DNA of 64,000 nt from Ottowia testudinis (GTDB lineage: Bacteria; Pseudomonadota; Gammaproteobacteria; Burkholderiales; Burkholderiaceae_C): the NCBI RefSeq assembly GCF_017498525.1, contig NZ_CP071796.1, positions 2,542,001 to 2,606,000 on the forward strand. Direction: 5' to 3'. Position 1 is the first letter of the stretch, and each line of letters opens with the position of its first letter. Made by a program: the position numbers and the translations under genes. Shown piece after piece: positions 1,420 to 61,890 of this stretch. The notes beneath the pieces are model-generated. The model was not told the DNA's origin. It ran no database searches and saw nothing but the letters and a program-made list of their open reading frames with translations.

Positions 1420-1463
1420 ACGCCAGCGCTTGCGCATCAAGCGCTGGCAGCTATCAAAAAAAG
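1420..1463. repeat. Family A palindromic repeat, copy between genes
   Basis: Matches the recurring element: CGCCAGCGCTTGCGCATCAA then AGCGCTGGCAGCTATCAAAA. The inner GCGCTT/AAGCGC arms form a short hairpin and the end carries the AGCTATCAAAA tail. It lies just past the stop of the 130-residue membrane protein gene. Confidence 0.8.
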
Positions 1464-1469
1464 AGTGTC

Positions 1470-1862
1470 TCAGGACCGCGGGGGACCGTCGGCCGCGTCA
1501 CGCACCTCGCGCCAGCGCACGTCCTGCACGCCGGTGGGCGCCGCTGCGCCCGTGGCCTGCGCAGCGTCGGCGCGCGGGGTGGCACTGGGCGGCTGGCGCT
1601 GCGGCCAGCGCTGGCGCGTCATGTCGCGATAACGGCGCCAGAGCATGGTGACGGCCGCCGGGCGGCCGGTGACCAGGCTGGCCACCAGGCTGACCAGCAC
1701 CATCACGGACAGCCAGATGAACAGGCTGAGCGCAAACACCACGCCCATCAGCGCCAAGGTGCCCCACACCAGCCAGCCCATGAGGCGGACGAGCAGGCGC
1801 TCCAGCCCGTTGGCGGCGCTGGCGGAAGGCGGGGGCAAGCTTTGGTACGACATGCGATTCAT
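1470..1862 (-). CDS. Small two-helix membrane protein of unknown function
   Basis: 130 residues if started at ATG 1862, or 127 from the second ATG at 1853 (MSYQSLPPPS). I do not recognise the family. Residues about 28-65 form one or two adjoining hydrophobic helices (LMGWLVWGTLALMGVVFALS followed by WLSVMVLVSLVASLV). A basic stretch (LWRRYRDMTRQRW) and an alanine/proline-rich soluble tail follow, so an inner-membrane protein with a cytoplasmic C-terminus is likely. It is transcribed in the same direction as nagZ, about 120 bp downstream of that gene's stop, and could be the last gene of the long minus-strand run. No enzymatic motif is visible. Confidence 0.6.
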   Translation of the reverse strand: MNRMSYQSLPPPSASAANGLERLLVRLMGWLVWGTLALMGVVFALSLFIWLSVMVLVSLVASLVTGRPAAVTMLWRRYRDMTRQRWPQRQPPSATPRADAAQATGAAAPTGVQDVRWREVRDAADGPPRS

Positions 1863-1985
1863 GCGTTTTCAGACCGCGCGGCGGGCTGAAAGTTCATCGG
1901 ATGCATTGTGGCGCAATACGCAGGCGCGCGCGGCGCTGGGCGCGCTATCACCGGCCGGTGGAACGGAGCAGTGGCGCGGCGCCCA

Positions 1986-3041
1986 TCACGGCACCAGCGC
2001 CAGAGCGCGCAGGTAGTCGGGCGTGCGCATCAGCGTGTCCCAGTCGAGGGCGGACGTGGCGGGCAGCAGCGCGAGCCGGCGAGCCTCACTGGCTGGCCGG
2101 GGTTGCCAACGGCCATCAAGCTGTGCACGGGCCAGGCCGTCGATGGTGTCGTCGATCACGCTGCCGTTGCCCAGCGACTGGTTGCACAGCAAGGCCATGT
2201 CGCAACCGGCGTCCAGCGCGGTCAGCACGGCGCCGGTGGGTGTGAGCGTGCGGCCAGCCAAGCGGCGTGCGCCTTCCATGCTGAGGTCGTCGCTGACGAT
2301 GGCGCCGCCAAAGCCCAGCCGCCCGCGCAGAATGGCCTGCAGCCAGCGTGCCGAAAAACCAGCCGGGCGGCTGTCGACCTTGGTGTAGACCACATGCGCT
2401 GGCATGACGGCGGTGAGCGTGCTGCCCAGCCAATCGTAGGGCGCGGCATCGTGGGCCAGGATGGTCTTCAACGGTCGCGCGTCGCGCGGCGCGTCGGTGT
2501 GCGAGTCGGCGGCGGTGAAGCCATGGCCAGGAAAGTGCTTGCCGCAATGCGCCATGCCGGCGCGCAGCAGACCGTGCGCCAGGCTTTTGGCCAACATGGT
2601 CACCACTCGGGCATCGGCGTGAAAAGCGCGGTCGCCGATGACCCCGCTCGGGCCCCAGTCGAGATCCAGCACGGGCGTGAAGGAAAAATCGACCCCGCAG
2701 GCGCGCAGCTCGGACGCGAGTACGTAGCCGCAAGCGGTTGCCGCATCTTGCGCGCGCAGGGCGTCCTGCATCCACAAATCGCCCAATGCGCGCATGGGCG
2801 GCAGGTGCGTGAAGCCGTCGGTGCGAAAGCGCTGCACGCGGCCGCCTTCGTGGTCGACGCAGATCAGCAGGTCGGGCCGCAGCCGCTTGATGCCGGCGGT
2901 GAGTTCGGTCAGCCGCGCGCGGTTTTGCCAGTTGCGCGCGAACAGGATCAGGCCGCCGACCAGCGGATGCGCCAAGCGCCGGCGGTCATCGTTCGTCAAC
3001 GCGGTACCGGCGATGTCGATGAGGAGGGGGGCGTGCTGCAT
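1986..3041 (-). CDS. nagZ: Beta-N-acetylhexosaminidase NagZ (GH3)
   Basis: Cytoplasmic glycoside hydrolase family 3 enzyme that removes N-acetylglucosamine from anhydromuropeptides during peptidoglycan recycling. It has 351 residues, close to the usual 340. Visible signatures are DHEGGRVQRF (63-72), GKHFPGHG (167-174) with the DSHTD loop (179-183) that carries the catalytic His, and IVSDDLSMEGA with the nucleophilic Asp at about 251. It starts at ATG 3041. The upstream neighbour is acpS, 68 bp away with a family A repeat between them, so the two may share a transcript. In organisms with an inducible AmpC beta-lactamase NagZ feeds the inducing signal; no ampC or ampR is visible here. Confidence 0.95.
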   Translation of the reverse strand: MQHAPLLIDIAGTALTNDDRRRLAHPLVGGLILFARNWQNRARLTELTAGIKRLRPDLLICVDHEGGRVQRFRTDGFTHLPPMRALGDLWMQDALRAQDAATACGYVLASELRACGVDFSFTPVLDLDWGPSGVIGDRAFHADARVVTMLAKSLAHGLLRAGMAHCGKHFPGHGFTAADSHTDAPRDARPLKTILAHDAAPYDWLGSTLTAVMPAHVVYTKVDSRPAGFSARWLQAILRGRLGFGGAIVSDDLSMEGARRLAGRTLTPTGAVLTALDAGCDMALLCNQSLGNGSVIDDTIDGLARAQLDGRWQPRPASEARRLALLPATSALDWDTLMRTPDYLRALALVP

Positions 3042-3058
3042 GGCGATGGTGATGAAAC

Positions 3059-3113
3059 TATATTTTTGATAGCTGCTCGCGCTTGCTTGTAAAGCACTGG
3101 AGCCGGTTTTTAT
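3059..3113. repeat. Family A palindromic repeat between acpS and nagZ
   Basis: Reads TTTTTGATAGCTGCTCGCGC, then a CTTGCTTGTAAAGC centre and a CTGGAGCC end, in reverse orientation to the copy at 1420. It fills almost all of the acpS-nagZ gap and overlaps the last bases of acpS. Confidence 0.8.
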
Positions 3114-3517
3114 CTAGAACCTTGCACGACCTTCTCGACCACGCAAAAGCTCGCGGCGTATTCGCTCTCGTCTGTGATGCTGATGTGGGCGATCAGGTGC
3201 TGTGCGTCGAACCAGTCCTGCAGGCCGCCGTGCAGCACGATGCAGGGCTCCCCGCTGGTCCGGTTGGCGATCTCGCACAGCCGCCAGTGCATGGGCAAGC
3301 GCATCCCCAGGCCGATGGCTTTGCTAAACGCCTCCTTGGCCGAAAAACGTGTGGCCAGATAGCGCACGCCGCGCTCGGGCCAGCGCGCGCCGCGCCGACG
3401 CCAGACGGCCAGTTCGCCATCGGCCAGAATTTTGTGGGCGAAGCGCTCGCCGTGCCGCTCGAAACTGGCGCGGATGCGGCGGATGTCGCAGATGTCGGTG
3501 CCGATGCCGTGGATCAT
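3110..3517 (-). CDS. acpS: Holo-[acyl-carrier-protein] synthase AcpS
   Basis: Transfers 4'-phosphopantetheine from CoA to the serine of apo-ACP. It is a 135-residue protein, normal for the family (about 126). The metal-binding Asp8 lies in GIGTDICDI (4-12), and the second conserved block [11 protein letters not shown] (57-67) holds Glu62. The C-terminal [13 protein letters not shown] matches the usual HxSxSH-type strand. ATG 3517 overlaps the stop of the LigT-like gene upstream by 4 nt (ATGA), so translation is probably coupled. The substrate gene acpP lies in the same minus-strand run, about 14 kb upstream. Confidence 0.95.
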
Positions 3518-6018: not shown

Positions 6019-7020
6019 CTATTCGTAGCCGAAGCTGCGCACGCGCGCCTCGTCGTCGGCCCAGCCGCTGCGCACCTTGACCCAGAGCTCGAGGAACATC
6101 TTGCAGTCCATGAGCTTTTCCAGCTCTTGCCGCGCTTCGGTGCCGATGCGCTTGAGGCGTTCGCCCTTGTCGCCGATCACCATGGCCTTGTGGCCGTCAC
6201 GCTCGACCACGATGGTGGCGGCAATGCGCACCATGCGGCCATGTTGCTTGCTCTTTTCTTCCTTGAACTGCTCGATGACGACGGTGGAGGTGTAGGGCAG
6301 CTCGTCGCCAGTCAGGCGGAACAGCTTCTCGCGCACCACCTCGCCGGCAAGGAACTTCTCGCTCTTGTCGGTCAGCTCGTCCTCGCCGTACCACCAGGGC
6401 TGCTCGGGCAGGTAGCGCTCGCAAATTTGCAGCAGGCGCTGCACGTCCTTCGGGTTCTTGGCCGACATAGGCACGAACTCGGCGAAAGGGTGGCGCTGCT
6501 GCATATCGCGCAGCCAGGGGGCGATTTCGGCGCGGCGGTGAACGGTGTCGAGCTTGTTGGCCACCAGCAGCGTGGGGGTGTCGGGCCGCAGCAGGGCCAA
6601 CACCTTGGCATCCCCCAGGGTGAAGCTGCCGGCCTCGACCACGAAAAGCACCAGATCAACCCCATCGATGGCGCCCAGCACCGTGCGGTTGAGCGATTTG
6701 TTCAGTGCCTTGCTGTGCCGCGTTTGAAAGCCAGGGGTATCGACAAAGATGAACTGGGTGCCGCCCCCCTGCCCGTCAGGCAACGTGCGGATCCCGGTGA
6801 TGCGGTGGCGCGTGGTCTGCGCCTTGCGGCTGGTGATGCTGATCTTCTGCCCGACCAGCGCATTGAGCAGCGTGGACTTGCCCACGTTGGGTTTGCCGAC
6901 GATGGCGATCACACCGCAGCGCTGGGCCGGCAGGCCGTCGACGACTGGTTTTTCAGGATTCAGGTGGCCGCCAGCGCTTTCTGGATCATCGGCAGCAGCT
7001 ATGTTTTCAGGAGTATTCAT
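6019..7020 (-). CDS. era: GTPase Era, 16S rRNA maturation factor
   Basis: Ras-like GTPase with a KH domain that binds the 3' end of 16S rRNA during 30S assembly. Length is 333 residues, longer than the roughly 300 usual. Walker [10 protein letters not shown] is at 42-50, DTPG at 94-97, NKLD at 155-158, and the KH motif [12 protein letters not shown] near 280-291. The start overlaps the rnc stop (ATGA, 7017-7020). The first 20 or so residues ([18 protein letters not shown]) are unlike the family; the DNA encoding them (6963-7011) is a copy of the family A palindromic repeat. The extra N-terminus therefore looks like repeat-derived sequence rather than an Era domain. Confidence 0.96.
6963..7011. 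repeat. Family A repeat forming the 5' coding end of era
   Basis: GGTGGCCGCCAGCGCTTTCT, then GGATCATCGGCAGCAGCTAT and GTTTTCAGG matches the other copies (GGCCGCCAGCGCTT, an approximate AAGCGC arm, AGCAGCTAT, T/A tail). It lies wholly inside the era reading frame, starting 9 bp from the ATG. Confidence 0.75.
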
Positions 7021-15368: not shown

Positions 15369-15863
15369 TCAGGCGCGTTCGGTCTCGGCGGCCGGCGTGG
15401 AGCCGGCGGACGCCGAGGTCAGCGGCGAATATAGCGCACAGCGCAGCAGGTGCCAGCGCGCTGGGTCGTTGCGGGCTTGGGCCCACAGCCAGCAGCCCCG
15501 CGCGCCACTGGCCGGTTGGAACCACAGCAGCATCCAGCGCTGAGCATCGAGCCGGAGCAGCACTTGCGCGCCCTCGCCGCCCATCTCCACCGCCTCGACC
15601 GGTGCGCCGACGAACCAGCATTCGCCATCCCAGCGCAGCGTGCGCGCGCGTTGGTGGCGCCAGAAGTTCAGCATGGCCGCCACGGCACCGCACCAGAAAA
15701 CTATCAAAATAATAGCTGCTAGCGCTTTCTGGACATACGCCAGCGGCCAAAACGACACTGAACACACCACAGCCAACGCACCACAGATGGCCATCCCCGC
15801 GAGCACGCCAGCCAACGCACGCGTGCGCCCCACCGGATAAACGACCGCAGGCGCTCGCATCAT
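15369..15863 (-). CDS. YgfX/CptA-like inner-membrane protein
   Basis: 164 residues from the double ATG at 15863/15860; a TTG at 15881 is less likely. Two hydrophobic helices (ALAGVLAGMAICGALAVVCS and ALAAIILIVFWCGAVAAMLN) are followed by a beta-rich domain (LRWDGECWFVG, VLLRLDAQRWMLLWFQP) and a final WHLLRCALYSP. This layout and the closing W-x-x-L-R motif resemble YgfX (CptA), known in E. coli as an inhibitor of cell division or partner of SdhE; this is inference. DNA encoding the second helix (15700-15752) is a family A repeat copy, so part of a membrane segment (FWPLAYVQKALAAIILIVF) appears to come from a mobile palindrome. Confidence 0.55.
   Translation of the reverse strand: MMRAPAVVYPVGRTRALAGVLAGMAICGALAVVCSVSFWPLAYVQKALAAIILIVFWCGAVAAMLNFWRHQRARTLRWDGECWFVGAPVEAVEMGGEGAQVLLRLDAQRWMLLWFQPASGARGCWLWAQARNDPARWHLLRCALYSPLTSASAGSTPAAETERA
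15700..15752. repeat. Family A repeat inside the YgfX-like gene
   Basis: CTATCAAAATAATAGCTGCT, then AGCGCTTTCTGGACATACGC and CAGCGGCCAAAA matches the full element from the AGCTGCT end to the GGCCAAAA end. It reads through in frame and encodes most of the second hydrophobic helix. Confidence 0.85.
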
Positions 15864-17619: not shown

Positions 17620-18369
17620 TCAGGCCATGAACATGCCGCCGTTGACGTGCAGCTCCTGCCCCGTCACGTAGCCGGCCTCGGGACTGGCCAGATAAGCCAC
17701 GGCATGCGCGATGTCGGCCGGCTCGCCCAGGCGGCCGAGCGGAATCTGCCCGGCCAGCGTCTTTTGCTGCTCGTCGCCCAGCGCGGCGGTCATGTCGGTG
17801 GCGATGAAGCCCGGCGCCACGCAGTTGGCGGTGATGCCGCGGCTGCCCAGCTCACGCGCCAGCGCGCGTGTCATGCCCGCCACGCCGGCCTTGGCGGCGG
17901 CATAGTTGGCCTGACCGGGGTTGCCCGAGGCGCCCACCACGCTGGTGATGCTGATGATGCGGCCGTGGCGCTGCTTCATCATGGGCCGCATCACGGCGCG
18001 GCTCATGCGGAAGACGGCCTTCAGGTTGGTGTCGAGCACGGCGTCCCAGTCCTCGTCCTTCATGCGCATGGCCAGCTGGTCGCGCGTGATGCCGGCGTTG
18101 TTGACCAGCACATGCAGCGCGCCATGTTCCTTGACGATGGCGTCGATCAGGTTTTCCGCCGCCGCCGCGTCGTTGACATCCAGCGCCGCGCCGCGGCAGC
18201 CGGGGTGCCCGGCCAACGCGGCGCCGATCTTCCCGGCGCCGGCCTCGGTGGTGGCCGTGCCGACGACGCGGTAGCCGCGCACCGCCAACTCGCGCGCGAT
18301 GGCCGCGCCAATACCTCTGCTGGCGCCCGTGACCAGGGCTATCCGACTCGCTCCATTCACCTCAGACAT
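17620..18369 (-). CDS. fabG: 3-oxoacyl-ACP reductase FabG
   Basis: NADPH-dependent reductase of 3-oxoacyl-ACP, a 249-residue short-chain dehydrogenase. The cofactor loop TGASRGIG is at 14-21, and the NNAG motif near 90-93. The catalytic set is Ser143 (ITSVVGASG), Tyr156 and Lys160 (YAAAK). The C-terminal SPEAGYVTGQELHVNGGMFM is typical of FabG. ATG 18369 follows a gap of 65 bp after fabD that contains a family A repeat. Confidence 0.97.
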   Translation of the reverse strand: MSEVNGASRIALVTGASRGIGAAIARELAVRGYRVVGTATTEAGAGKIGAALAGHPGCRGAALDVNDAAAAENLIDAIVKEHGALHVLVNNAGITRDQLAMRMKDEDWDAVLDTNLKAVFRMSRAVMRPMMKQRHGRIISITSVVGASGNPGQANYAAAKAGVAGMTRALARELGSRGITANCVAPGFIATDMTAALGDEQQKTLAGQIPLGRLGEPADIAHAVAYLASPEAGYVTGQELHVNGGMFMA

Positions 18370-18381
18370 GCATGCCTTTCA

Positions 18382-18428
18382 TGCCGCCAGCGCTTTCAGG
18401 ACAAGCGCGAGTAGCTATAAAAAAGATA
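18382..18428. repeat. Family A repeat between fabD and fabG
   Basis: GCCGCCAGCGCTTTCAGGAC, then AAGCGCGAGTAGCTATAAAA. It has the complete inner inverted repeat (GCGCTT/AAGCGC) and A-rich tail, and occupies nearly the whole fabD-fabG gap. Confidence 0.82.
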
Positions 18429-18434
18429 ACAAAC

Positions 18435-19385
18435 TCAGCCGACCAGCGCCTTCACCTCGGCCAGCGTGGCCGGGTCATACAGGGCCACGCCGGTCAGTTC
18501 GGCGTCGATGCGCTTGGTCATGCCGGCCAGCACCTTGCCGGGGCCGCATTCGACCACCGTGTGCAAGCCCATGGCCTTGATCTTGTGGACGCATTCGACC
18601 CAGCGTACCGGACCGAAAGCCTGGCGGAACAATGCGTCGCGGATGCGGTCTTGGTCGCTTTCGATCGCCACGTCGATGTTGTTGACCACCGGAATCCTCG
18701 GCTCGGCGAAGTCGACCGCGGCCAGCGCGCCCTTGAGGCGCTCGGCCGCCGGCTTCATCAGGCTGGAGTGGAACGGCGCCGATACCGGCAGCGGCAGCGC
18801 GCGCTTGGCGCCCATGCCCTTGAGCACTTCGCAGGCTTTTTCGACCGCCGCCTTGGTGCCGGCGATCACCGTCTGCACCGGGTCGTTGAAGTTGACGGCT
18901 TCGACGATCTCAGTGCCATTTTGGCCCATGGCGCCTGTCACTTCAGCGCAGCCAGCTATGACTTTTGAAGCATCCAGCCCCAGGATGGCCGCCATGGCGC
19001 CGGTGCCCACGGGCACCGCTTCTTGCATGGCCTGGGCGCGCAGGCGCACCAGCGGCACGGCTTCGGCCAGCGGCAGCGCCTCGGCGGCGACCAGCGCGGA
19101 ATATTCGCCCAGCGAGTGCCCCGCCACCGCGGCGGGCAGCGCCCCGCCTTCAGCCCGCCAGGCGCGCCAGCAGGCGACGCCCGCCACCAGCATCACCGGT
19201 TGCGTGTTGGTGGTCAGCGCCAGCGCTTCCTTCGGGCCGCCGGCGATCAGCGCGCCGATGTCCTCGCCCAGCGCGCTGGAGGCTTCGGCCAGGGTTTCGC
19301 GCACCGCCGGGTGGTCGCCCCAGGCGTCCAGCATGCCCACGGCTTGCGAGCCCTGACCTGGAAAAACAAAGGCGATGGGTTTCAT
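18435..19385 (-). CDS. fabD: Malonyl-CoA:ACP transacylase FabD
   Basis: Moves malonyl from CoA to ACP. It has 316 residues. The oxyanion motif FVFPGQGSQAVGM is at the N-terminus, the nucleophile Ser91 in GHSLGEYSA and the catalytic His206 in SAPFHSSLM. Residues around 139-158 (SKVIAGCAEVTGAMGQNGTE) are slightly longer than in most FabD proteins and are encoded by sequence resembling a family A repeat (18917-18968). It stands upstream of fabG and downstream of fabH, with repeats in both gaps. Confidence 0.96.
   Translation of the reverse strand: MKPIAFVFPGQGSQAVGMLDAWGDHPAVRETLAEASSALGEDIGALIAGGPKEALALTTNTQPVMLVAGVACWRAWRAEGGALPAAVAGHSLGEYSALVAAEALPLAEAVPLVRLRAQAMQEAVPVGTGAMAAILGLDASKVIAGCAEVTGAMGQNGTEIVEAVNFNDPVQTVIAGTKAAVEKACEVLKGMGAKRALPLPVSAPFHSSLMKPAAERLKGALAAVDFAEPRIPVVNNIDVAIESDQDRIRDALFRQAFGPVRWVECVHKIKAMGLHTVVECGPGKVLAGMTKRIDAELTGVALYDPATLAEVKALVG
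18917..18968. repeat. Probable degenerate family A repeat inside fabD
   Basis: ATTTTGGCCCATGGCGCCTG, then TCACTTCAGCGCAGCCAGCT and ATGACTTTT preserves the GGCC...GCGC...AGCGCA...CAGCTAT...TTTT order but has lost the perfect inner arms. It is in frame. Confidence 0.5.
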
Positions 19386-19408
19386 GGCTCAGCTCAAAAA
19401 TAGGAATG

Positions 19409-19458
19409 AAAAACGGCGTCAGCGCTTGCCAGTCCAGCGCAAGCAGCTATAAAACAAG
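19409..19458. repeat. Family A repeat between fabH and fabD
   Basis: AAAAACGGCGTCAGCGCTTG, then CCAGTCCAGCGCAAGCAGCT and ATAAAACAAG. It contains a near-complete inner palindrome and the AGCAGCTATAAAA end. It lies between the fabD start and the end of fabH, overlapping the last few fabH codons. Confidence 0.8.
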
Positions 19459-20427
19459 AAGCACCGCTCCCCAGGTGAAGCCGCCGCCCACGCCTTCGAG
19501 CAACAGCGTCTGCCCTGGCTTGACCTGGCCGGAGCGCACCCCGTGGTCGAGCGCCAGCGGAATCGACGCCGCCGACGTGTTGCCGTGGTCATGCACCGTC
19601 ACCACCACCTTCTCCTGCGGCAGATGCAGCTTTTTAGCGGTGCTGTGCATGATGCGGATGTTGGCCTGGTGCGGAATCAGCCAGTCGATGTCGGCTTCGG
19701 TCTTGCCGGCCTTGGCCAGCACGGCGCGCGCGGCCTTGTCGAGCACACCCACGGCCAGCTTGAACACGGCCTGCCCATCCATCTTCAGCAGCGGATCGCC
19801 CAGCGCCTGGCCGCCTGCCACGTGGCCCGGCACGCAAAGAATGTCGACGTATTTGCCATCGGCGTGCAGGTCGGTGGCCAGAATGCCCGGCGTGTCCGAC
19901 GCCTCCAGCACCACGGCGCCCGCGCCGTCGCCAAACAGCACGCAGGTGGTGCGGTCGTTGAAATCAAGAATGCGGCTGAACACCTCGGCGCCGATCACCA
20001 GCGCGCGGCGCGCCGTGCCGTTGGCGAGCAGCGCGTCGGCCACCGTCAGCGCGTACACAAAGCCGCTGCACACGGCCTGCACGTCGAACACCGGGCAGCC
20101 CGCCATGCCCAACTTGTGCTGCACGATGGCCGCGGTGGACGGAAACACCATGTCCGGCGTGGACGTGGCGACGATGATGAGGTCGATGTCGGCCGGCTGC
20201 ACGCCCGCCGCGGCCATCGCGGCGCGCGCGGCGGGCACGGCCAGTTCGCTGGCCGGCACGTCGGGCGCGGCAAAGTGACGTGCGCGGATACCGGTGCGCT
20301 CGACGATCCACTCATCCGACGTCTCGATGCCCCGCGCCGCCAGCTCGGCCACCAGATCGTCGTTGGTCACGCGGCGCGGCGGCAGATAGCTGCCGGTGCC
20401 GGTGATGCGGGAATAGCGTCTGGTCAT
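19447..20427 (-). CDS. fabH: 3-oxoacyl-ACP synthase III (FabH)
   Basis: Initiates fatty acid synthesis by condensing acetyl-CoA with malonyl-ACP. It has 326 residues from ATG 20427 ([20 protein letters not shown]); a longer open frame upstream overlaps plsX and was rejected. The Cys-His-Asn triad is Cys120 (DVQAVCSGF), His253 (IPHQANIRI) and Asn283 ([10 protein letters not shown]). The C-terminal [16 protein letters not shown] is standard. The last few codons (VLLVL) are encoded by the A-rich tail of a family A repeat. It is preceded by plsX, as in E. coli. Confidence 0.97.
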
Positions 20428-22022: not shown

Positions 22023-22574
22023 TCAATCGCTCTTTTTTTCGGTTCGCAAGGCCGCCAGGGCCGCAAAAGGCTGGCGCTTGGCCGCTTGCGCGCCATCGAA
22101 GTCGTCGCTTTGCGTTTCGAGCCGCACGGCCACCGGGCAGGCATCGTGGCGCGGCACCAGCGGCAGCGCCATCAGCAATTCATCCTCGATCAGCGCGGCC
22201 AGGTTGAAGTCGGGCGCGATGGCCAGGACGTCATCGTCCGACATATCGTCCAGCGCGGCGGCGGTGGCCTCGTCGGGCACGAAGAGAAAATGCCGGTCAA
22301 CCTCGACCTCGGTGATCACCTCGCCCATGCAGCGCTGGCAGGTCAGCGGCAGGGCCGCCTCGATCTGCAGATGAATCGAAGGATAAACGCTGCCGCTGCT
22401 CGCCTTGCGCGGGCCGCCCGCGGCCCGCCAGCCAACGGTCAAATCAGGCGCTGGCGCTTGCAGTTCGTGCGCTAGGCGCTCATATTTCTGCAGCGTATCG
22501 GTACCGCTCAACACCGCTCTTGCGTCGGCGAACGCGGCGACATCCAGACGCTGTGCGTTGAAGGTCTTGCTCAT
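22023..22574 (-). CDS. yceD: YceD family protein (DUF177), 23S rRNA accumulation protein
   Basis: 183 residues from ATG 22574 (MSKTFNAQRLDVAAFADARA). The DUF177 signature is a metal-binding-like LTCQRCMGEV segment followed by FLFVPDEATAAALDD and the acidic APDFNLAALIEDELLMALPL, then PRHDACP. In E. coli YceD is needed for normal 23S rRNA levels; the mechanism is not settled. It precedes rpmF, as expected. The start is only 27 bp from the divergent maf start, so both promoters must overlap or lie inside the opposite genes. Confidence 0.92.
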   Translation of the reverse strand: MSKTFNAQRLDVAAFADARAVLSGTDTLQKYERLAHELQAPAPDLTVGWRAAGGPRKASSGSVYPSIHLQIEAALPLTCQRCMGEVITEVEVDRHFLFVPDEATAAALDDMSDDDVLAIAPDFNLAALIEDELLMALPLVPRHDACPVAVRLETQSDDFDGAQAAKRQPFAALAALRTEKKSD

Positions 22575-23210: not shown

Positions 23211-23974
23211 GCGGCCGCCTGTTTTTGGTGCCCACGCCGCTGGACCACGGCTGCGATAGCCAGTCGCCGCTGAACGAGGTGCTGCCGCTGGGCACTATCA
23301 AAAAAGCAGCTGACATCGCTTGCTGGATCAGCGAAAACGCCAAATCCACTCGCGCTTTCTTGAAGCGCGTGGATGCGCTGACGCCACTGGCGCAACCGAT
23401 CCAGGCGCAACAAATCACCGAGCTGCCGCGCGAAGTGCACAAGAAAGGCGATCACGCCGGTGCCACCCGCTTCGACGCCCGCCCGCTGTTGGCCCCCGCG
23501 CTGCAAGGCCAAGACGTGGGGCTGATCAGTGAAGCCGGCATGCCGGCCGTGGCCGACCCCGGCAGTTCAGTGGTGCGCGCCGCGCACGAACTGGGGTTGG
23601 CTGTGGTGCCGCTGGTCGGCCCGGTGTCGATGCTGCTGGCGTTGGCGGCCAGCGGGTTGAATGGACAGAACTTCGCCTTCGTCGGCTATCTGCCGCAAGA
23701 AGGCGCCGCGCGCGCGCAGCGCATCCGCGAGCTGGAAGCGCTGGCGCACAAGACGGGGCAGACGCAGCTGTTCATTGAAACGCCCTACCGCAACCTGGCG
23801 CTGTGGCAGGCGCTGCTGCAAACGCTGAAGCCCGGCACGCGCATGGCGGTGGCGCATGGGTTGACGCTGGCCGATGGGCAGGTGCGCAGCGCCAGCGTCA
23901 GCCACTGGCGGCAGGGGCGTACGGAGCACGACGCGCTGGTCCGCATGCCCGCGGTGTTTGCCATCGGGGGATGA
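23207..23974 (+). CDS. RsmI-like SAM-dependent methyltransferase
   Basis: 255-residue protein of the tetrapyrrole-methylase fold related to RsmI (16S rRNA 2'-O-methyltransferase). It starts MSGRLFLVPTPLDHG and keeps KSTRAFLKRVD, GLISEAGMPAVADPGSSVVR and the AASGLNGQNFAFVGYLP block. It differs from true RsmI by its DHG segment in place of the IGNL motif, as in a betaproteobacterial sister group. The substrate is uncertain. Codons for GTIKKAADIACWISENA fall in a family A repeat copy (23293-23345). It is translationally coupled to maf by an ATGA overlap. Confidence 0.8.
   Translation: MSGRLFLVPTPLDHGCDSQSPLNEVLPLGTIKKAADIACWISENAKSTRAFLKRVDALTPLAQPIQAQQITELPREVHKKGDHAGATRFDARPLLAPALQGQDVGLISEAGMPAVADPGSSVVRAAHELGLAVVPLVGPVSMLLALAASGLNGQNFAFVGYLPQEGAARAQRIRELEALAHKTGQTQLFIETPYRNLALWQALLQTLKPGTRMAVAHGLTLADGQVRSASVSHWRQGRTEHDALVRMPAVFAIGG
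23293..23345. repeat. Family A repeat inside the RsmI-like gene
   Basis: CTATCAAAAAAGCAGCTGAC, then ATCGCTTGCTGGATCAGCGA closely tracks the consensus CTATCAAAAA-AGCTGCTTGCGCTTGCTGGA-AAGCG with a few substitutions. It is in frame and the encoded segment aligns with the family. Confidence 0.6.
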
Positions 23975-25067: not shown

Positions 25068-25078
25068 GGTTGTTTACT

Positions 25079-25127
25079 TCAAAAATATGAGCTGCTTGCG
25101 CTTTTCATGCAACGTTTTCAGATGGTT
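25079..25127. repeat. Family A repeat upstream of sppA (copy 1)
   Basis: CAAAAATATGAGCTGCTTGC, then GCTTTTCATGCAACGTTTTC. It keeps the AGCTGCTTGCGCTT arm; the far half has decayed. Confidence 0.7.
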
Positions 25128-25139
25128 TTAGCTTGAAAA

Positions 25140-25175
25140 CGTCGCTGGCACCGCGCAAGCAGCTATCAAAAAAAT
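25140..25175. repeat. Family A repeat upstream of sppA (copy 2, opposite orientation)
   Basis: CGTCGCTGGCACCGCGCAAG, then CAGCTATCAAAAAAAT. It faces copy 1, so the gap can fold into a large hairpin (GCTGCTTGCGC with GCGCAAGCAGC). Confidence 0.75.
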
Positions 25176-25606: not shown

Positions 25607-25607
25607 G

Positions 25608-25628
25608 CGCAGGCAGCTATCAAAACAA
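25608..25628. repeat. Partial family A repeat before the Rieske gene
   Basis: CGCAGGCAGCTATCAAAACAA is the tail end of the element only, lying between gph and the Rieske start. Confidence 0.55.
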
Positions 25629-25637
25629 GGGTTTCCA

Positions 25638-36710: not shown

Positions 36711-36760
36711 TTTAATAGCTATTGGCGCTTTATTATCAAGCGCCAGCACCATTTTCAACC
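36711..36760. repeat. Family A repeat near the hemY 3' end
   Basis: GGCTATTGATTTAATAGCTA, then TTGGCGCTTTATTATCAAGC and GCCAGCACC keeps TAGCTATTGGCGCTT...CAAGCGCCAGC. It lies between hemY and the orphan gene. Confidence 0.7.
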
Positions 36761-36782
36761 ACAAATCCCCGGCAAGCCCTCA

Positions 36783-40250: not shown

Positions 40251-41171
40251 TCATCTCGCGCCGGCCGCGCGCAGGTCGGCCGCCACACGCTCGCCCAGCG
40301 CCACGGCGGCGTCCACGCCGTGTACATCGGCGGCGCCCTCGGCGGTGACCAGGCGCGGCGCGCCCTCCGGGTCGCCCCAGGCGGCGCGCAGATGCAGGCG
40401 CTTGCCCTCCAGCGTGGCGTGCGCGGCCAGCGGCATCGAGCAGCTGCCGCCCATGGCGCGGCTGACGGCGCGCTCGGCGGCCACCGCCAGCCACGTGCTT
40501 TGATCAGCCAATGGGGCCAGCGCGCCCGCCAAATCAGCGCGGGCAGCTATTGTTTCGATACCCAGCGCGCCTTGCCCGGCCGCTGGCAGCATCTCGTCGG
40601 AGCTGAAGATGTGTCGGATGCGATCGGCGAGGCGCAAGCGCTTGAGGCCCGCCGCCGCCAGCACGATGGCGGCGTACTGCCCCTCGTCCAGCTTGCGCAA
40701 GCGGGTGTCCAGGTTGCCGCGCAGCGGCTCGATGCGCACGTCGTCACGCTGCATTTTCGAGAGCATGGCGCGCAGCAAGACCGTGCGCCGCAGGCTGGAA
40801 GTGCCGATGACCGCACCGGGCGGCAGATCGGCCGGCGTGGCGCAGCCCGGCGACACCCAGGCATCGCGCGGGTCTTCGCGCGCCATCACGCAGGCCAGCG
40901 CAAAGCCCTCGGGCAGGTCCATCGGCACGTCTTTCAACGAATGCACGGCGATGTCGGCGCGGCCCTCTTCCAGCGCCGTTTCCAGCTCTTTCACGAACAG
41001 GCCCTTGCCGCCGACCTTGCTGAGGGTGCGGTCCAGGATTTGGTCGCCGCGCGTGGTCATGCCGAGCAGCGTGACGGCGTGGTCGCGTGCTTCAAGCAGG
41101 GCTTTGACGTGTTCGGCCTGCCACAGGGCGAGGCGGCTTTCGCGGGTGGCGATGGTGATCTGAAGGGACAT
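40251..41171 (-). CDS. hemC: Porphobilinogen deaminase (hydroxymethylbilane synthase)
   Basis: Polymerises four porphobilinogen units on a dipyrromethane cofactor. It has 306 residues starting [37 protein letters not shown] and [17 protein letters not shown] are the substrate-binding blocks. The dipyrromethane cofactor cysteine is in [14 protein letters not shown] (about residue 243). ATG 41171. In Pseudomonas hemC follows algR; here a phosphonate cassette lies between them. A possible decayed family A repeat lies at 40514-40557. Confidence 0.95.
40514..40557. repeat. Possible decayed family A repeat inside hemC
   Basis: GGGGCCAGCGCGCCCGCCAA, then ATCAGCGCGGGCAGCTATTG keeps GGCCAGCGC...CAGCGCGGGCAGCTAT only. 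Chance resemblance cannot be excluded, since HemC length is normal here. Confidence 0.35.
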
Positions 41172-47071: not shown

Positions 47072-47812
47072 CTACTCGCCCAGCGCCTCGCGCACCGCCG
47101 CCACCTGCCGGCGCGAGACCATCAGCACCTCGTCGATGCCAGCCAGGCGCACGGCCCAGCCTTCGCCCTCGTCGGGGTCGTTGTGGCGCACCAGCGCGCG
47201 GATGGCGTTGCGCGCGACCAGCGCATTGCGGTGGATGCGCAGGAAGCGGCCGGGGAACTTGTCTTCCAGCTGGCTCAGGCTGCCGTCGAGCAGGTGGCTG
47301 GCGGCCGCCGTGCGCACGGTGACGTATTTCAGCTCGGCCTTCAGGTACAGCACCTCAGGCAAAGGCACGCGCACGGTGCGGCCGCGCTCGCTGATCAGCA
47401 GCCAGTCGGGGGCCGAATCGGGCTCTCGCGCTTGTCTGGCCAGCGCGAGACGCTCTACTTTTTGAAGCGCGGTTTGCAGGCGCTCGAGCCGCACGGGCTT
47501 GGTCAGGTAATCCACCGCGTCCAGTTCGAAGGCGTGCACGGCATGTTCGGTGTGGGCGGTGACGAAGACCACCAGCGGCGGTTCGGGCGCTTCGCGGAGC
47601 GCCGCCGCCAACTGCAGCCCGTCGGCGCCGGGCATGTGGATGTCGAGCAGCGCGGCGTCAAAACGCTGGTGCTGCACCAGCGCCATGGCCTGCGCGGCGC
47701 TGGCGGCCTCGGCGGCGGCCACGGCTTCAGGTTGGCGGCACTCGCCCAGCAGCGTGCGCAGGCGCGAACGGGCCAGCGCCTCGTCATCGACGATCAGCAC
47801 CTGCAGCGTCAT
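47072..47812 (-). CDS. LytTR response regulator, AlgR-like
   Basis: 246 residues from ATG 47812 ([20 protein letters not shown]). The receiver domain has acidic VDDE at 8-11, phospho-acceptor Asp57 (ALLDIHMPG) and Lys in LTKPVRLERL. The LytTR DNA-binding domain covers about 145-246 (VLYLKAELKYVTVRT, RFLRIHRNALVARNAI). It overlaps its sensor kinase gene by 4 nt. By synteny with argH it corresponds to Pseudomonas AlgR, which controls alginate and twitching motility; targets here are unknown. A family A repeat encodes part of the inter-domain linker. Confidence 0.9.
   Translation of the reverse strand: MTLQVLIVDDEALARSRLRTLLGECRQPEAVAAAEAASAAQAMALVQHQRFDAALLDIHMPGADGLQLAAALREAPEPPLVVFVTAHTEHAVHAFELDAVDYLTKPVRLERLQTALQKVERLALARQAREPDSAPDWLLISERGRTVRVPLPEVLYLKAELKYVTVRTAAASHLLDGSLSQLEDKFPGRFLRIHRNALVARNAIRALVRHNDPDEGEGWAVRLAGIDEVLMVSRRQVAAVREALGE
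47420..47466. repeat. Family A-like repeat in the algR linker
   Basis: GGCTCTCGCGCTTGTCTGGC, then CAGCGCGAGACGCTCTACTT and TTTGAAG matches the order GCGCTTGTCTGG-AGCGCGAG-(TA)GCT-TTTTTGA of other copies with several changes, in frame in the linker between the two domains. Confidence 0.55.
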
Positions 47813-50400: not shown

Positions 50401-50416
50401 TCGGCGTCGCTTTTCT

Positions 50417-50468
50417 ATCTTTTTATAGCTGGCTGCGCTTGACTGATAAGCGCCGGGGGCTTATTTGA
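50417..50468. repeat. Family A repeat after argH
   Basis: TATCTTTTTATAGCTGGCTG, then CGCTTGACTGATAAGCGCCG and GGGGCTTATTT. It has a good GCGCTT/AAGCGC core. Confidence 0.75.
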
Positions 50469-50508
50469 CGTGAAAAGTCTCGGCGGTCGCCGCTACCCCT
50501 CACCCCAG

Positions 50509-52822: not shown

Positions 52823-55800
52823 ATGAGCCTGCCCGTGTTGGCACGCGCCGCCCGGCGCTCTTTCGGTGTTGCCGTGGGCCTTGCCGCCGCCAGCAGTGCC
52901 CTGGCGCTGGGCGTGGCATCCATCAGCCCGCAGGGCGAGGTGTCGCAGGTGCGCCAGGTGGCCGCCAAATTCAATGAAGACGCGGTGCGCTTTGGCGACC
53001 CCAAGGCGCCCGCACCTTTCAACTTGCAGTGCGACAACGCCAGCGCCGCGCAGGGCCAGGCGCGCTGGACGTCGGCGCGCGAATGGGTGTTCGACTTCGC
53101 GGCCGATTTGCCGCCCGGCGTGCGCTGCCAGATCACGCCAGTTTCAGGATACAAATCGCCCGCTGGCGCTTTACTGACCAGCGCGAGCAGCTATCAATTT
53201 CATACCGGCGGGCCCTTCGTGCAGCGCATCCGCCCCAGCACCTCGCAGCCGATTGAAGAAGAACAGGCCTTTGCGCTCATGCTGAACGGCGACGCCACGC
53301 CCGAGAGCCTGGTGCCCAACGTCTGGTGCGCGGTCGATGGGCTGGGCGAGCGTGTGCCGATCCGCCCCATCACCGGCGAGGCGCAGACCGCGCTGTTCAA
53401 GGCGCTGGGCTGGGACGATGCCGCCCAGCGCGCGCCCGGGCGCTACGCCACCTTTCAGTGCGCCCGGCGGCTCACGCCCGCCAGCCGCGTGCAGGTGGTG
53501 TACGGCCCAGGCGTGGCCACGCCCAGCGGCGTGCCCAACCGCATCGAGCGGCGCTTTGCCTTCACCGTGCGCGAGCCGTTCACCGCCAGCACCAGCTGCG
53601 AGCGCGAGAACGCCCAGGCCGGCTGCCTGCCGATCCGCCCGATCGAGCTGAAATTCAGCGCCCCGGTGCCGCGCCGTCTGGCCGCGATGGCGCGCCTGGT
53701 GGGCGACAAGGCCGAGCTGGAGCCGGTCATCGAGGGCGACACCGAGGCCGACGCACTGGTCGAGCGCCTGCGGTTTCCCCACCCATTGCCCGAGCGCAGC
53801 GCCTTCACGCTGCGCCTGCCGCCCGATCTGAAGGATGCCAGCGGCCGCCCGCTGGCCAACGCGGCCAGCTTTCCGCTCAAGATCGCCACCGGGCCGATGC
53901 CACCGCTGGTCAAGTTCGCCGCCGCGCCTTTCGGCATCGTCGAGCGCTTTGCCGAAGGCCCCCAAGGCCCGGCGCTGCTGCCCGTCACGCTGCGCTATGT
54001 CGAACCAGCGCTGAAGGCCGAGGCGCTGCAGATCGGCCACCTGCAACCCAAAAGCGACGCCGACATCATTGCCTGGTTCACCCGCGTGCAGCGTTACGAC
54101 GAATCTCTGGTGACGCGCAAGCAGGCGGCGCGCGATTTGAAGCAGCCGCTGCCGCCCGCCGTGAGCCCCGAGACCAAGGACATGGTCGAAACCCGCACCG
54201 TTTCGCTGCTGAAGGGGCAGCCCGCGGTGCAGCACATCGAGCTGCCGCCGCCCCCCGGCGGCGGCGAGCGGCCGTTCGAGGTGATCGGCATTCCGCTGCC
54301 AGCGGGCTTTCACGTGCTGGAGCTGGCCTCGCAACGCCTGGGCCAATCGCTGCTGAACGACAAATACGGCGCCCAGCGGACCATGGTGGTGCGCACCTCG
54401 ACCCTGGTCACCAACCTGGGCGTGCACTTCAAGCTGGGGCGCGACAACGCGCTGGCCTGGGTCACCACGCTCGACACCGGCAAGCCGGTGGCCGGCGCCA
54501 CGGTGCAGGTGTCGGACTGCCACGGCAAACCGGTGGCCAGCGCCGCCACCGACGCGCGCGGCATCGCCACCTTCAAGGGCATTTCGCCCGAAGCGCCGCG
54601 CTGCAACGGCGACAAGGACGACCATTTCTATGGCGAATTCCGCAACGCCTACTTCGTCAGCGCGCGCGCCGAACAACAGGGCGCGCAGGACATGGCCTTC
54701 ACCTGGTCGTCGTGGCAGCGCGGCATCGAGCCGTGGCGCTTCAACGTGCCGACCAGCGACGGCCCGCGGCCCGATTTGCGCGCCCACACCGTGTTCGACC
54801 GCGTGCTGCTGCGCGCGGGCGAAACGGTGTCGATGAAGCACCTGCTGCGCACCGAAACCGCCGCCGGCTTCGGCCTGCCCCCAGCCGGCCCGGCCACCCT
54901 GGTCATCACCCACGTCGGCAGCGGTCAGGAATTCACACAGCCCGTGCAATGGCGCAACACCGTCACCGGTGGGCGTAGCGCCGAGAGCACCTTCGCCATC
55001 CCGCCCGCCGCCAAGCTGGGCGCGTACCAAGTGGCACTGCGCATGCCCGCGCGCGCGGGCGCGGCCGGCGGCGAGGCGGACGAACAGCTGCTGGAAACCG
55101 GCCAGTTCCGCGTCGAGGAATTCCGCCTGCCGGTGCTCAAGGGCAGCGTGGCGCCGGTCTCCAAAGAGCCGCTGATCGCCGCCGCCAGCGTGCCGGTGCA
55201 AGTGCAGATCGGCTACGTGGCAGGTGGCCCGGCGGCCAACCTGCCGGTGCGCGTGTCGGCCCTCACGCGCACCAAGCCGTTGCGCTTTGCCAGTTATGAC
55301 GACTTCAGCTTCGAGCCGCCGCGCACGCGCGCCGAAGGCCCGCAGACCAACCACGATGGCGAAGAAGAAGGCACCGCCCGCCACGACCAGCGCGTGGTGG
55401 CCGACAAGCTGCCGCTCACGCTCGACCGCCAGGGCCAGGGCAGTGTGACCATTGATCAGCTCAAACCCTCAGCGGGCGCGCGCGAGCTGGTCGTCGAGGC
55501 CAACTTTGCCGACCCCAACGGCGAAATCCAGACCCTGCGCGGCACCGCACCGCTGTGGCCGGCGGGCGTGATCGCCGGCATCCGCGCCGAAAGCTGGGTT
55601 TCGGCCAGCCAGTCGGCCAAGCTGCAGGCGCTGGCGCTTGACTTGACGGGCCAGCCCAAGGCCGGCGTGCCGCTCGATGTCAAGGCCGTGGCGCGCATCA
55701 CCACCACCAGCCGCAAGCGCATGGTGGGCGGTTTTTACACCTACGACAACCGCACCGAGACCAAGGACCTGGGCACCGTGTGCACCGGCACCAGCGACGC

Positions 55801-58804: not shown

Positions 58805-58814
58805 CACGCTGCTT

Positions 58815-58866
58815 TGTTTTTGATAGCTGCTCGCGCTTTTTGGACAAGCGCTGGCGGCCAATTTGA
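58815..58866. repeat. Family A repeat after the macroglobulin gene (best consensus copy)
   Basis: TTTTTGATAGCTGCTCGCGC, then TTTTTGGACAAGCGCTGGCG and GCCAATTTG. Both arms and both ends are intact, so this is a good reference copy. Confidence 0.88.
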
Positions 58867-58874
58867 ATAAACCT

Positions 58875-58894
58875 CCCCGCAGCAAGCTGCGGGG
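58875..58894. repeat. Perfect GC hairpin CCCCGCAGC/GCTGCGGGG
   Basis: 9-bp perfect stem separated by AA, flanked by AATAAACCTC and TATTCG. It could stop plus-strand transcription but lacks a T run. Confidence 0.6.
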
Positions 58895-59755: not shown

Positions 59756-61295
59756 GTGCCTGAGCTGCCCTGAATGTAACTGTTTGTTGATGAAGAATTA
59801 TTGCGCAGAACCCCCTCAACAGGTGGTCTTTTTTGGGCGCGCAAGGCGCTGCCACAATCTTTCTCATGCTCGCAACTTCGATTCGGCGCTGGACGCTGGG
59901 GCTCACGCTCACGCTCACGCTGACACTGTCCGCGGCCGCGCACGCGCTGCCCAACTTCGATCAGGTGCGCGCCGACTTCCGCCCGTCCGAGACGCAACTG
60001 CTCGATCGCCACGGCGAGCCGCTGCAGCGCCTGCGCAGTGACGCCCAGGTGCGCCGTGGCGACTGGGTTCGGCTGGCCGGCATCTCGCCCGCGCTGCGCC
60101 AGGCGCTGGTGCTTTCGGAGGACAAGCGCTTTTACGAGCACAGCGGCGTCGACTGGCGCGCGGTGAGCAGCGCCGCCTGGGCCAACCTGTGGCACACCCG
60201 CACGCGCGGCGCCAGCACACTGACCATGCAGCTGGCCGGCCTGCTGGACGACGATCTGGCGCTGGGCACCGGCGGGCGCACGCTGCGCCAGAAGATCGGC
60301 CAGGCGGTGATGGCCACGCGGCTCGAAGCGCGCTGGCGCAAGGATCAGATTCTGGAGGCGTACCTCAACCTGGTGCCGTTTCGCGGCGAGCTGGTGGGCA
60401 TCGACGCGCTCAGCCGCACGCTGTTCGCCAAGGCGCCGCACGGCCTGCAAGACCACGAGGCCGCCATCGCCGCCGCCCTGGTGCGCGCGCCCAATGCCCG
60501 GCCCGCGCTGGTGTCCGCGCGCGCCTGCGGGGTGCTCAAAACCATGCGCGCGGGCGACGCGGGCGTCGATTGCGTGGCGCTCGACATGCAGGCCGAAGCC
60601 GCCCTGTCGCGCCGCGCCTGGGCGCCCAGCGACGGCGTGGCGCCGCATCTGGCGCGCCGCCTGCTCGCTGGCGCCGCAGCCAACGGCGCGCCGCCCCCCG
60701 CCCTGCCCAGCACGCTCGATGGCCCGCTGCAGCGCCTGGCCCTGCGAACCCTGCAGCGCCAGGTGCGCGAGCTGCGCGGGCGCAACGTGGCCGACGGCGC
60801 GGTGCTGGTCATCGACAACGCCAGCGGCGAGGTGCTGGCCTGGGTGGGCTCGACCGGCGAGCTGAGCCAGGCGGCCGACGTGGACGGCGTCACCGCCGAG
60901 CGCCAGCCCGGCAGCACGCTCAAACCGTTTCTGTACGCGCAAGCGATTGCCGAAAAGCGCCTGACGGCCGCGTCGCTGCTCGACGATTCACCCGCGCACC
61001 TGCAAACCGCCAGCGGCCTGTACATCCCGCAGAACTACGACCGCAGCTTCAAGGGCCACGTGTCGGCACGCACCGCGCTGGCGGCTTCGCTCAACGTGCC
61101 GGCGGTGCGCACGCTGGTCATGGTGTCGCCCGAGGCGTTTCGGCGCCAGCTGGGCGCCTTCGGCATCCCGCTGCGCGAGGGGGGCGACTACTACGGCTAC
61201 AGCCTGGCGCTGGGCAGCGCCGAAGTCAGCCTGCTGCAGCTGACCAACGCATTTCGCGCGTTGACGAATGGCGGAAAGCTGTGCCCGGTGCGGTG

Positions 61296-61425
61296 GCAAC
61301 CTGCCCCACTCCCTCGCCCCTCCGGCGAGAGGGCCGGGAGTGAGGGCGCGGCCACGCCAAGGGGCGCCGACTTGCCCTCACCCCACCCTCTCCCGCCCGC
61401 GGGAGAGGGGCAGCACAGCCTGCAC
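61296..61425. repeat. CTCTCCC/GGGAGAG palindromic element inside pbpC
   Basis: Two hairpin units: CCACTCCCTCGCCCCTCCGG, then CGAGAGGGCCGGGAGTGAGG, and after a spacer CCCTCACCCCACCCTCTCCC with GCCCGCGGGAGAGGGG. It matches the single unit at 50509. The insertion point falls between VRWQ and IDPAAAF codons and changes the frame. Confidence 0.85.
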
Positions 61426-61828
61426 CCCCGCCATCGACCCCGCCGCCGCCTTCATCGTGACCGACATCCTGGCCGACCGCGACGCGCGCGCGCGCACCTT
61501 CGGCACCGACTCGATCCTGGCCACGCGCTTCTGGACGGCGGTAAAAACCGGCACCAGCAAGGACATGCGCGACAACTGGGCCGTGGGCAGCAGCGCGCGC
61601 TACACCGTCGGCGTGTGGGTCGGCAACGCCAGCGGCGCGGCGATGTGGGACGTCAGCGGCACCAGCGGCGCCGCGCCCGTGTGGGCCGCGCTGATGCGCC
61701 ACCTGCACGCGCGCACCCCTTCGCGCGCGCCCGCGCCGCCTGCTGGCGTGGTGCGTCACGCCGTGCGCTTTGGCGACGCGCTGGAAGCAGCGCGCGACGA
61801 ATGGTTTCTGTCAGGCACCCAGCAGGCC

Positions 61829-61890
61829 CTTTTTGCTATGGATACAGGAGCTGATCGCGCCCGCCAATCAAGCGCTGGTGGCCAAAAAAG
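61829..61890. repeat. Family A repeat in the pbpC 3' part
   Basis: CTTTTTGCTATGGATACAGG, then AGCTGATCGCGCCCGCCAAT and CAAGCGCTGGTGGCCAAAAA. Keeps AGCTG.TCGCGC...CAAGCGCTGG.GGCCAAAAA, in frame with the downstream coding part. Confidence 0.7.

Follow-up and report, generated by a model that had tools for sequence, protein, structure and literature searches.

How does a palindrome come to lie in frame within essential genes? The question is raised by a 64-kb stretch of the complete 4.32-Mb genome of Ottowia testudinis (contig NZ_CP071796.1, positions 2,542,001 to 2,606,000), hereafter the window, meaning the whole stretch that was analysed, in which one palindromic motif recurs again and again. 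A preliminary description had taken this motif for an element of the repetitive extragenic palindromic (REP) type that had been inserted into genes. We find that at coding sites the motif very probably evolves in place, by substitutions within sequence that was already there. As to its cause we favour, with modest confidence, a dispersed recognition motif of about 67 bp that evolves in place through a trans-acting reader, most likely the DNA-uptake machinery.

Detection and anatomy of the motif

The sequence sampled comprised the window and 20 stretches of 20 kb spread across the genome (464 kb). Below, G-numbers denote the genomes compared (G000 being the present one), L-numbers denote loci or stretches, and the genus sample holds 29 genomes. 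Among 80 loci listed, from which the source genome was possibly omitted, the HemC closest to that of the window is from Ottowia beijingensis (88% identity). A first profile of 49 bp was seeded from eight of the nine clear copies of the preliminary description, all nine of which are present in the window, and was then refined on the 464 kb. It scored 24 window places above 8.6 bits, a cut-off equal to the mean plus half a standard deviation of the maxima from 30 shuffled windows; the best shuffled window reached 12.2 bits and thus the weakest of the 24 places lie within chance on the 49-bp profile alone. The final profile, of 71 columns, gave 22 window places of at least 20 bits and 141 copies of at least 25 bits in the 464 kb (~300 per Mb), an average density of about one copy per three kilobases. 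Markov-3 and reversed-sequence controls gave no place above 20 bits (maximum 7.2), so that chance does not supply as many matches, and a repeated family of palindromic shape in both orientations is confirmed. Across the whole genome, ATAGCTGCTNGCGCTT with at most one mismatch has 624 matches, compared with 1 in the reversed control, and by extrapolation the genome would hold about 1,300 copies.

The conserved unit is longer than the roughly 50 bp first proposed, as conservation runs from about position -8 to +58 around the 49-bp core, about 67 bp, and stops beyond. Its layout in this genome is GCTAT, an A/T tract, ATAGCTGCTnGCGCTTG, 5 bp, CAAGCGCtaGnGGC, ATTT, n7 and AA. The profile is gapless by construction; a covariance search that allows gaps likewise returned nearly all full-length matches at a length of 49, and the spacing is rigid. 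Positions A9, G10, C11 and C18 are fixed and the positions adjacent to them nearly free, and the flanking A-tracts (positions 2-3 and 46-47) tolerate AA, TT or AT and hardly ever TA. A minority of copies take a paired form that spans about 89-90 bp, with two left cores facing one another. These cores lie 65 bp apart in the Ottowia sample (2 pairs) and 66 bp apart in Comamonas (8) and in G004 (1), and no paired forms were found in the Rhodoferax and G085 samples. The fixed additional length of the paired form, 40-41 bp, roughly corresponds to four helical turns.

Protein length and codon spelling at coding sites

Insertion of a 67-bp unit is expected to lengthen the host protein by 22 residues. 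In Fmt, the segment at the motif measures 25 residues in 10/10 motif genomes and in 9/12 genomes without the motif; the remaining 3/12 have 27-40 residues and three more genomes are intermediate. These figures cover 25 of the 29 genomes, with G107 (no match), G114 (split match), and G100 and G124 (segment extracted out of frame) dropped. Compared with solved structures, Fmt has 2-4 extra residues at the motif. EarP carries two copies and was compared in 28 genomes (G108, with no match, was dropped). Copy 2 aligns without gaps to the Pseudomonas aeruginosa structure 6j7m, and its site measures 24 residues in all 13 motif genomes and 15-80 residues in 13 others, two genomes being intermediate. 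HemC is gapless with 12 orthologues among the matches listed, the macroglobulin is of equal length in 4/4 relatives aligned and AlgR in 6/7, G015 being 3 bp longer. Two copies in PurL are accompanied by about 7 extra residues each relative to solved structures. In flank-anchored comparisons of the window with relatives, 32/51 differ by at most 9 bp; loosely anchored or longer differences occur at 25081, 25579, 39819, 58816 and 61840, and at 33971 the gap is shorter in G102 and G015 despite the presence of the motif. The EarP and Fmt alignments would reveal insertions, because large unrelated ones are visible in EarP (G118, G119) and Fmt (G103, G104, G115).

Clean in-frame insertion is therefore ruled out at Fmt, EarP site 2 and HemC by orthologues of the same length or without gaps. 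More generally, the inserted REP-like element of the preliminary description fails at most coding sites tested (Fmt, EarP site 2, HemC, macroglobulin, AlgR): where orthologues were aligned in search of clean insertions of a multiple of three, most sites showed the same length and no gap of about 22 residues, DapF excepted. This corrects the view of the in-gene palindromes here as insertions. Separately, loops of EarP (L220/G118, L221/G119) and Fmt (G103, G104, G115, G110) hold other in-frame insertions, of other sequence and about 13 to 85 residues long, with tandem copies in some genomes.

The spelling of the host genes points the same way. At EarP copy 1, conserved residues are recoded into rare motif codons. 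The peptide around EIAPEFIA is present in genomes of both kinds; motif-bearing ones use codons such as ATT GCT CCT GAA TTC ATA GCT, and the others mostly codons ending in C or G. Of the Ile codons in this genome, 1.4% are ATA. In this peptide the Ile codon is ATA in 13/28 genomes, all 13 with a motif score above zero, and in 0/14 genomes scoring below zero; G100 has GTA. Moreover, third-base identity at motif positions of Fmt is 0.94 among motif genomes, against 0.73 over the remainder of the gene, and 0.42 among genomes without the motif, against 0.59 elsewhere. At EarP site 2 the corresponding values are 0.91 against 0.70 with the motif and 0.55 against 0.61 without it. The DNA sequence itself is thus conserved at two of three sites tested. 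Some motif-poor genomes have intermediate EarP scores (21 and 25 bits in G105, 25 in G113), and their sequences look like stages of motif erosion.

Within the window, in-frame copies inside essential genes are present as first described, with profile matches inside the open reading frames (ORFs) of hemC, hemD and fabD, for example (Table 1). Three further assignments stood in part. The era copy does lie in the era ORF, although in an N-terminal extension and not in the GTPase domain itself. The copy assigned to an RsmI-like gene (23299) exists as a match, although a weak and doubtful one. The copy placed in a YgfX-like gene (15700) does overlap an ORF, for which a family search gave no match and which the gene caller scores as intergenic. 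At 61268-62209 of the window, a separate ORF encodes the C-terminal half of the pbpC-like protein.

Table 1. Copies of the motif in the window, paired forms in the sampled loci, and genes for REP-associated tyrosine transposases (RAYT) that lie between palindromes of their own.
Feature	Position	Strand	Score (bits)	Context
Motif copy	1401..1471	-	62	Intergenic (71-column profile)
Motif copy	3052..3122	+	77	Overlaps end of predicted gene
Motif copy	6949..7019	-	38	era ORF, N-terminal extension before GTPase domain (domain start residue 34)
Motif copy	15695..15765	+	62	Overlaps small unnamed ORF 15328-15900; scored intergenic by gene caller
Motif copy	18365..18435	-	56	Intergenic, by fabD
Motif copy	18906..18976	-	48	Within fabD
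Motif copy	19397..19467	-	67	Gene boundary
Motif copy	22429..22499	-	35	Within yceD-family gene
Weak, doubtful match	23289..23359	+	20	rsmI-like ORF; G100 without motif at equal length
Paired form, about 89 bp	25071..25173	.		Two left cores facing
Motif copy	25567..25637	-	36	Gene end
Motif copy	28147..28217	-	59	Intergenic, upstream of rne
Motif copy	30913..30983	-	67	rne C-terminal tail
Motif copy	33959..34029	-	76	Intergenic; G100, G102 and G015 carry the motif here too
Motif copy	36698..36768	+	62	Intergenic, by HemY_N gene
Motif copy	39809..39879	+	64	Within hemD; common to several genera
Motif copy	40497..40567	-	35	Within hemC; protein gapless
Motif copy	47403..47473	-	44	Interdomain linker of LytTR response regulator
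Motif copy	50408..50478	+	57	Intergenic
Motif copy	53141..53211	-	58	Alpha-2-macroglobulin gene
Motif copy	58806..58876	+	70	Intergenic, between macroglobulin and pbpC
Motif copy	61830..61900	+	44	pbpC-like ORF, just before BiPBP_C part
Paired form	L066 1951-2039			
Paired form	L068 11203-11291			
Paired form	L145 19060-19149			
Paired form	L169 303-392			
Paired form	L171 13807-13896			
RAYT gene	L191 7069-7617 (G000 about 2,448,069-2,448,617)			Between own GTAG/CTAC-type palindromes
RAYT gene	L190 7251-8087			Between own GTAG/CTAC-type palindromes

Placement, dialects and distribution

Genes were called with a simple codon-usage gene caller made for this analysis (coding fraction 0.80). By these calls, of 134 copies in the genome sample, 84 fall between genes, 26 straddle the end of a gene and 24 lie inside genes, so that copies are under-represented in coding sequence and the earlier impression that half of them are genic does not extend to the sample. 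Inside genes, 15 copies are antisense and 9 sense to the host gene. Divergent (promoter) regions hold 5 copies compared with 19.4 expected by length. Copies are spaced more evenly than random, with a coefficient of variation (CV) of 0.75 compared with a uniform mean of 0.96. This holds against draws that keep each copy in its own class, coding or intergenic, and so allow for gene length: the CV is then 0.76 against 1.03, with 0/1000 draws as low, and intervals below 500 bp number 8 against 26. Many consecutive copies between 15,700 and 61,900 of the window are 2.6-3.1 kb apart; a general periodicity of 2.7-3.1 kb was rejected, as it is not seen in other stretches and the even spacing alone holds. 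A rough region-wise strand bias among copies was also seen.

Two of the 20 sampled stretches contain motif-free runs of 17-20 kb, namely L055 (no copy) and L063 (final 17 kb without one). Both have a low GC content (0.62) and accessory-looking genes, comprising methylase-like and copper-resistance genes, and haem-uptake genes. L055 (G000 1,390,001-1,410,000), motif-free over its 20 kb and lower in GC, also has AAA/SEC-C genes beside the methylase-like and copper-resistance ones and resembles an acquired island. Among 2.9 million viral contigs, 2 stretches match the 23-base core exactly, compared with 12 matches in the 464 kb sampled here. A BLAST search of one copy against plasmids and phages gave no match, and is uninformative because copies are only ~51% identical on average. 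Scarcity of the motif in newly acquired DNA is only suggested. One of the two viral matches, L275 (catalogued as viral contig IMGVR_UViG_3300020176_000010), carries two motif copies 311 bases apart.

No recent copies were seen. The closest pair among the 141 copies is 77.5% identical (maximum identity 0.775), which equals the top value reached in 100 column shuffles (their maxima average 71.6%). Profiles for five genera (26-144 copies per genus; reversed controls 0) have in common AGCT at positions 9-12, GCGC at 17-20 and G32, and otherwise differ. A16 marks Comamonas, A21 and GGGCTA mark Rhodoferax, and the right half is rewritten in Comamonas. Thus the constant part is the left core and not the palindrome, and each sampled genus has its own dialect around the fixed core AGCT…GCGC.

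These dialects are partly followed at the hemD site. Five loci score best there with the Rhodoferax profile and carry A21: L114 and L122, titled Rhodoferax, and L121, L127 and L148, from metagenome-assembled genomes of unassigned dialect. T21 is found in the Acidovorax, Paenacidovorax and Ottowia loci, the exceptions among relatives being L070 (A21) and L147 (G21), and 9/24 compared sequences are without the motif at this site.

Within the genus, ATAGCTGCTNGCGCTT counts range from 0 to 624 across the 29 genomes, several of which are incomplete drafts, with 49 or more in 15 genomes and 12 or fewer in 14. The high or low state would require at least three changes on a quick EarP+Fmt protein tree, in which 11/25 inner branches are weak and Fmt is blank for four genomes. 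In a sample of the family, 15/100 genomes have more than 10 matches, compared with 0/146 genomes of other families of the same order having more than 3 (the reversed control reaches 6). Counts are 328 in O. beijingensis, 410 in Paenacidovorax caeni, 256 in Simplicispira metamorpha, 170 in Acidovorax sp. 210-6, 129 in Comamonas composti, 58 in Rhodoferax TS-BS-61-7 and 20 in Rhodoferax TH121. Nine genomes have 0-1, namely two of Limnohabitans, Ramlibacter, three of Hydrogenophaga, Hylemonella, Curvibacter and Rhodoferax STA_46. As the search word is the Ottowia core, other dialects are undercounted.

Candidate explanations

In the explanation that we favour, copies would arise by point substitutions and then be retained in place, because a trans-acting reader of double-stranded DNA would favour motif-bearing chromosomes. 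Such a reader would most likely be the competence or type IV pilus DNA-uptake machinery. The sequences themselves show evolution in place at coding sites, constraint on the DNA at two of three sites, dialects, even spacing and distribution, whereas both the existence of a reader and this identity are what we infer. Motif-bearing fragments would be preferentially taken up and recombined, and through this preference the motif would build up at permissive sequence and its copies would space out. It would enter genes via recoding and tolerated amino-acid changes. Foreign DNA would lack the motif, the dialect would shift with the reader, and the motif would decay once the reader is lost. Whether DNA uptake is the driver we regard as evenly balanced, arguing by analogy with known systems. 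More tentatively still, and short of even confidence, this may be a third, independently evolved DNA-uptake-signal system, belonging to the Comamonadaceae. It would be bipartite, of about 67 bp, with genus dialects, and old, its hemD site being inherited across genera and partly re-spelled, and it would have been gained and lost repeatedly within one genus.

The analogy is with the DNA uptake sequences (DUS) of Neisseriaceae and the uptake signal sequences (USS) of Pasteurellaceae. These originate by point mutation, and newly acquired DNA and coding sequence contain few of them (PMC7811141). According to the available text of PMC3630211 and PMC12616744 they occupy permissive sites, form inverted pairs and vary in dialect around an inner core, the latter paper giving lengths of up to ~13 bp for DUS and up to ~32 bp for USS. 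The present motif resembles both in its hundreds to thousands of copies on both strands, origin by point mutation, preference for intergenic or permissive sites, genus dialects that leave an inner core invariant, inverted pairs and erosion in some relatives, and it resembles USS in the A/T tracts that adjoin the core. By this comparison it would appear to share most of the published USS/DUS traits. Its host family, Comamonadaceae, is a different one. Should the motif prove to be an uptake signal, DNA self-recognition through a sequence tag would have evolved outside Neisseriaceae and Pasteurellaceae. Moreover, with congeners at 0 to 624 copies, gain and loss of the reader could then be mapped, which would offer a clean test of molecular drive.

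Several observations weigh against this reading. The motif is ~67 bp, bipartite and near-palindromic, unlike the 10-32 bp of DUS/USS. ComEC is present in 26/29 congeners, motif-poor ones included, with no link to copy number, so that if uptake is the driver the variable part would be the receptor and not the channel. ComEC presence was accordingly rejected as the gene explaining copy number, since 26/29 regardless of count gives no discrimination. At EarP site 1 there is no excess of third-base conservation (0.73 against 0.71; 0.44 in genomes without the motif). The same site measures 23-24 residues in 11 motif genomes and 13-21 in 15 others, two being intermediate, and copy 1 has about 9 extra residues relative to the solved structure. 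The EarP sites are indel-tolerant loops in which small length changes accompany the motif. DapF has about 23-24 extra residues compared with solved structures, and its loop is 10-17 residues shorter in 5/7 motif-less genomes (G113, G126, G121, G112, G101), with similar or greater length in motif-less G106 and G116 (18/20 matched genomes; G104 and G114, at 42-46% identity, left out). Small insertions thus accompany some sites. The intergenic copy at 18377 is missing in G100, where the gap is 42 bp shorter, and G116, G118, G103 and G112, with 78-228 copies, are without the motif at one or more of the sites compared. Pairwise identities among copies spread more widely than in column shuffles (99.9% quantile 0.73 against 0.68), so the copies are not fully independent and some relatedness or linkage is left; adjacent motif columns are correlated. 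The hemD copy of Comamonas composti scores 48 with the Ottowia profile and 35 with that of Comamonas, contrary to a strict rule of dialects. Lastly, the GC-poor stretches L060, L061 and L068 are rich in copies, showing that GC alone does not decide where copies are absent.

The motif might instead be a binding site for a chromosome-organising protein, such as a nucleoid protein, gyrase or similar, selected for nucleoid spacing and not for uptake. We consider this unlikely, although it deserves real weight: the rigid internal spacing, the A-tract signature, the dyad-like shape and the even spacing of copies would all suit such a site, as would the recurrence of the paired form at a fixed 65-66 bp in Ottowia, G004 and Comamonas. 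However, a basic nucleoid function is expected to be steadier than counts of 0 to 624 among congeners, some of them motif-free, and the motif was not detected beyond one family, none of the 146 sampled genomes from other families of the order exceeding three matches. It would be a very long and unusually frequent site of its kind. Under either this reading or an uptake signal, the data point to selection at the level of DNA that rewrites codons and residues of essential enzymes.

A mobile palindrome, of the REP type or a miniature inverted-repeat transposable element, inserted into genes and moved by a Y1/RAYT transposase, is improbable and is largely refuted for the coding copies tested. Like REP/RAYT systems, the motif is a short palindrome in both orientations, prefers intergenic sequence and is abundant, at some 300 copies per Mb. 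IS200-type Y1 genes and three RAYT genes (NF047646 matches) are found in the genome, two of the latter with a weak or truncated motif copy at one end, and both the longer DapF loop and the shorter gap at 18377 would fit insertion. Unlike in such systems, at most of the coding sites tested the motif has not been inserted as a unit: orthologues are of the same length and conserved residues are recoded. Near-identical copies are absent, and the hemD site is common to several genera. The preliminary description had proposed a search for a RAYT gene flanked by the same palindrome, and none of the three genes is bracketed in this way. The 3′ end of RAYT1 is overlapped by a copy of 29 bits, and next to that of RAYT2 lies a truncated one that scores 17 bits (31 for its left half, against a control maximum of 16); around RAYT3 there is no copy within 1.6 kb. 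RAYT2 and RAYT3 are each flanked on both sides by other palindromes, of GTAG/CTAC type (Table 1). As copies near gene ends are common anyway, the two 3′ copies are not taken as partnership and are the best remaining hint of one. The REP/RAYT reading was rejected because no RAYT gene is bracketed, other palindromes flank RAYT2 and RAYT3, and no recent copies exist. Pieces of the RAYT3-type palindrome recur in three other sampled stretches, those of the RAYT2 type do not, and at RAYT2 the GTAG/CTAC-type palindrome comes directly after the truncated motif copy. Rickettsia palindromic elements are in-frame palindromes in genes, insertions that lengthen the host protein. The present motif likewise lies in frame inside coding genes, but adds 0-9 residues and not about 22 at EarP, Fmt, PurL and HemC; at DapF it is about 23-24.

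Least probable of all is a signal at the RNA level, such as a bidirectional transcription terminator or a processed hairpin, and we mostly reject it: hairpin potential is strong in 3/5 dialects, copies fold better than column-shuffled ones in 4/5 genera (60 Ottowia copies used), and copies frequently lie close to gene ends and seldom in divergent regions, but the Rhodoferax and Comamonas dialects have weaker hairpins, sense copies lie inside earP, fmt, hemC and fabD, none of 15 stem (arm) pairs covaries reliably (largest z 2.0), and the window has no Rfam match at the gathering threshold. Swapping whole arms between copies, with neighbouring bases kept, gave z from -2.5 to +1.2 in 20 tests, so that the folding signal is mostly lost and gives no support to compensating changes in a stem.

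Parts of the motif may have been reported before. Table 7 of PMC5217627 (2017), as far as its available text goes, lists as potential novel motifs, with no function, ATAGCT(N)22CAAAAG (125 copies in Polaromonas naphthalenivorans) and GCTTAT(N)5AAGCG (114 in Acidovorax ebreus). That text describes the pairs as mostly intergenic, many between convergent genes, and about 50 bp from genes. Their base order and spacing fit motif positions 7-12/35-40 and 19-24/30-34 respectively, and on this basis the two pairs look like fragments of the present motif. They were reported as two separate fragments, and the link drawn here comes from the published pairs and not from genome scans. Among the open-licence papers listed by our searches, none unites the 2017 pairs or names a Comamonadaceae uptake signal. 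A further betaproteobacterial repeat, BRE, is ~90 bp long with some copies in coding sequences (PMC3110155), and from the available text its identity with the motif could not be judged. The available text of PMC2755013 deals solely with CRISPRs. Exact pairs are rare in the Ottowia, G085 and G004 samples, where ATAGCT(N)22CAAAAG occurs 2, 0 and 0 times and exact GCTTAT(N)5AAGCG 7, 10 and 5 times.

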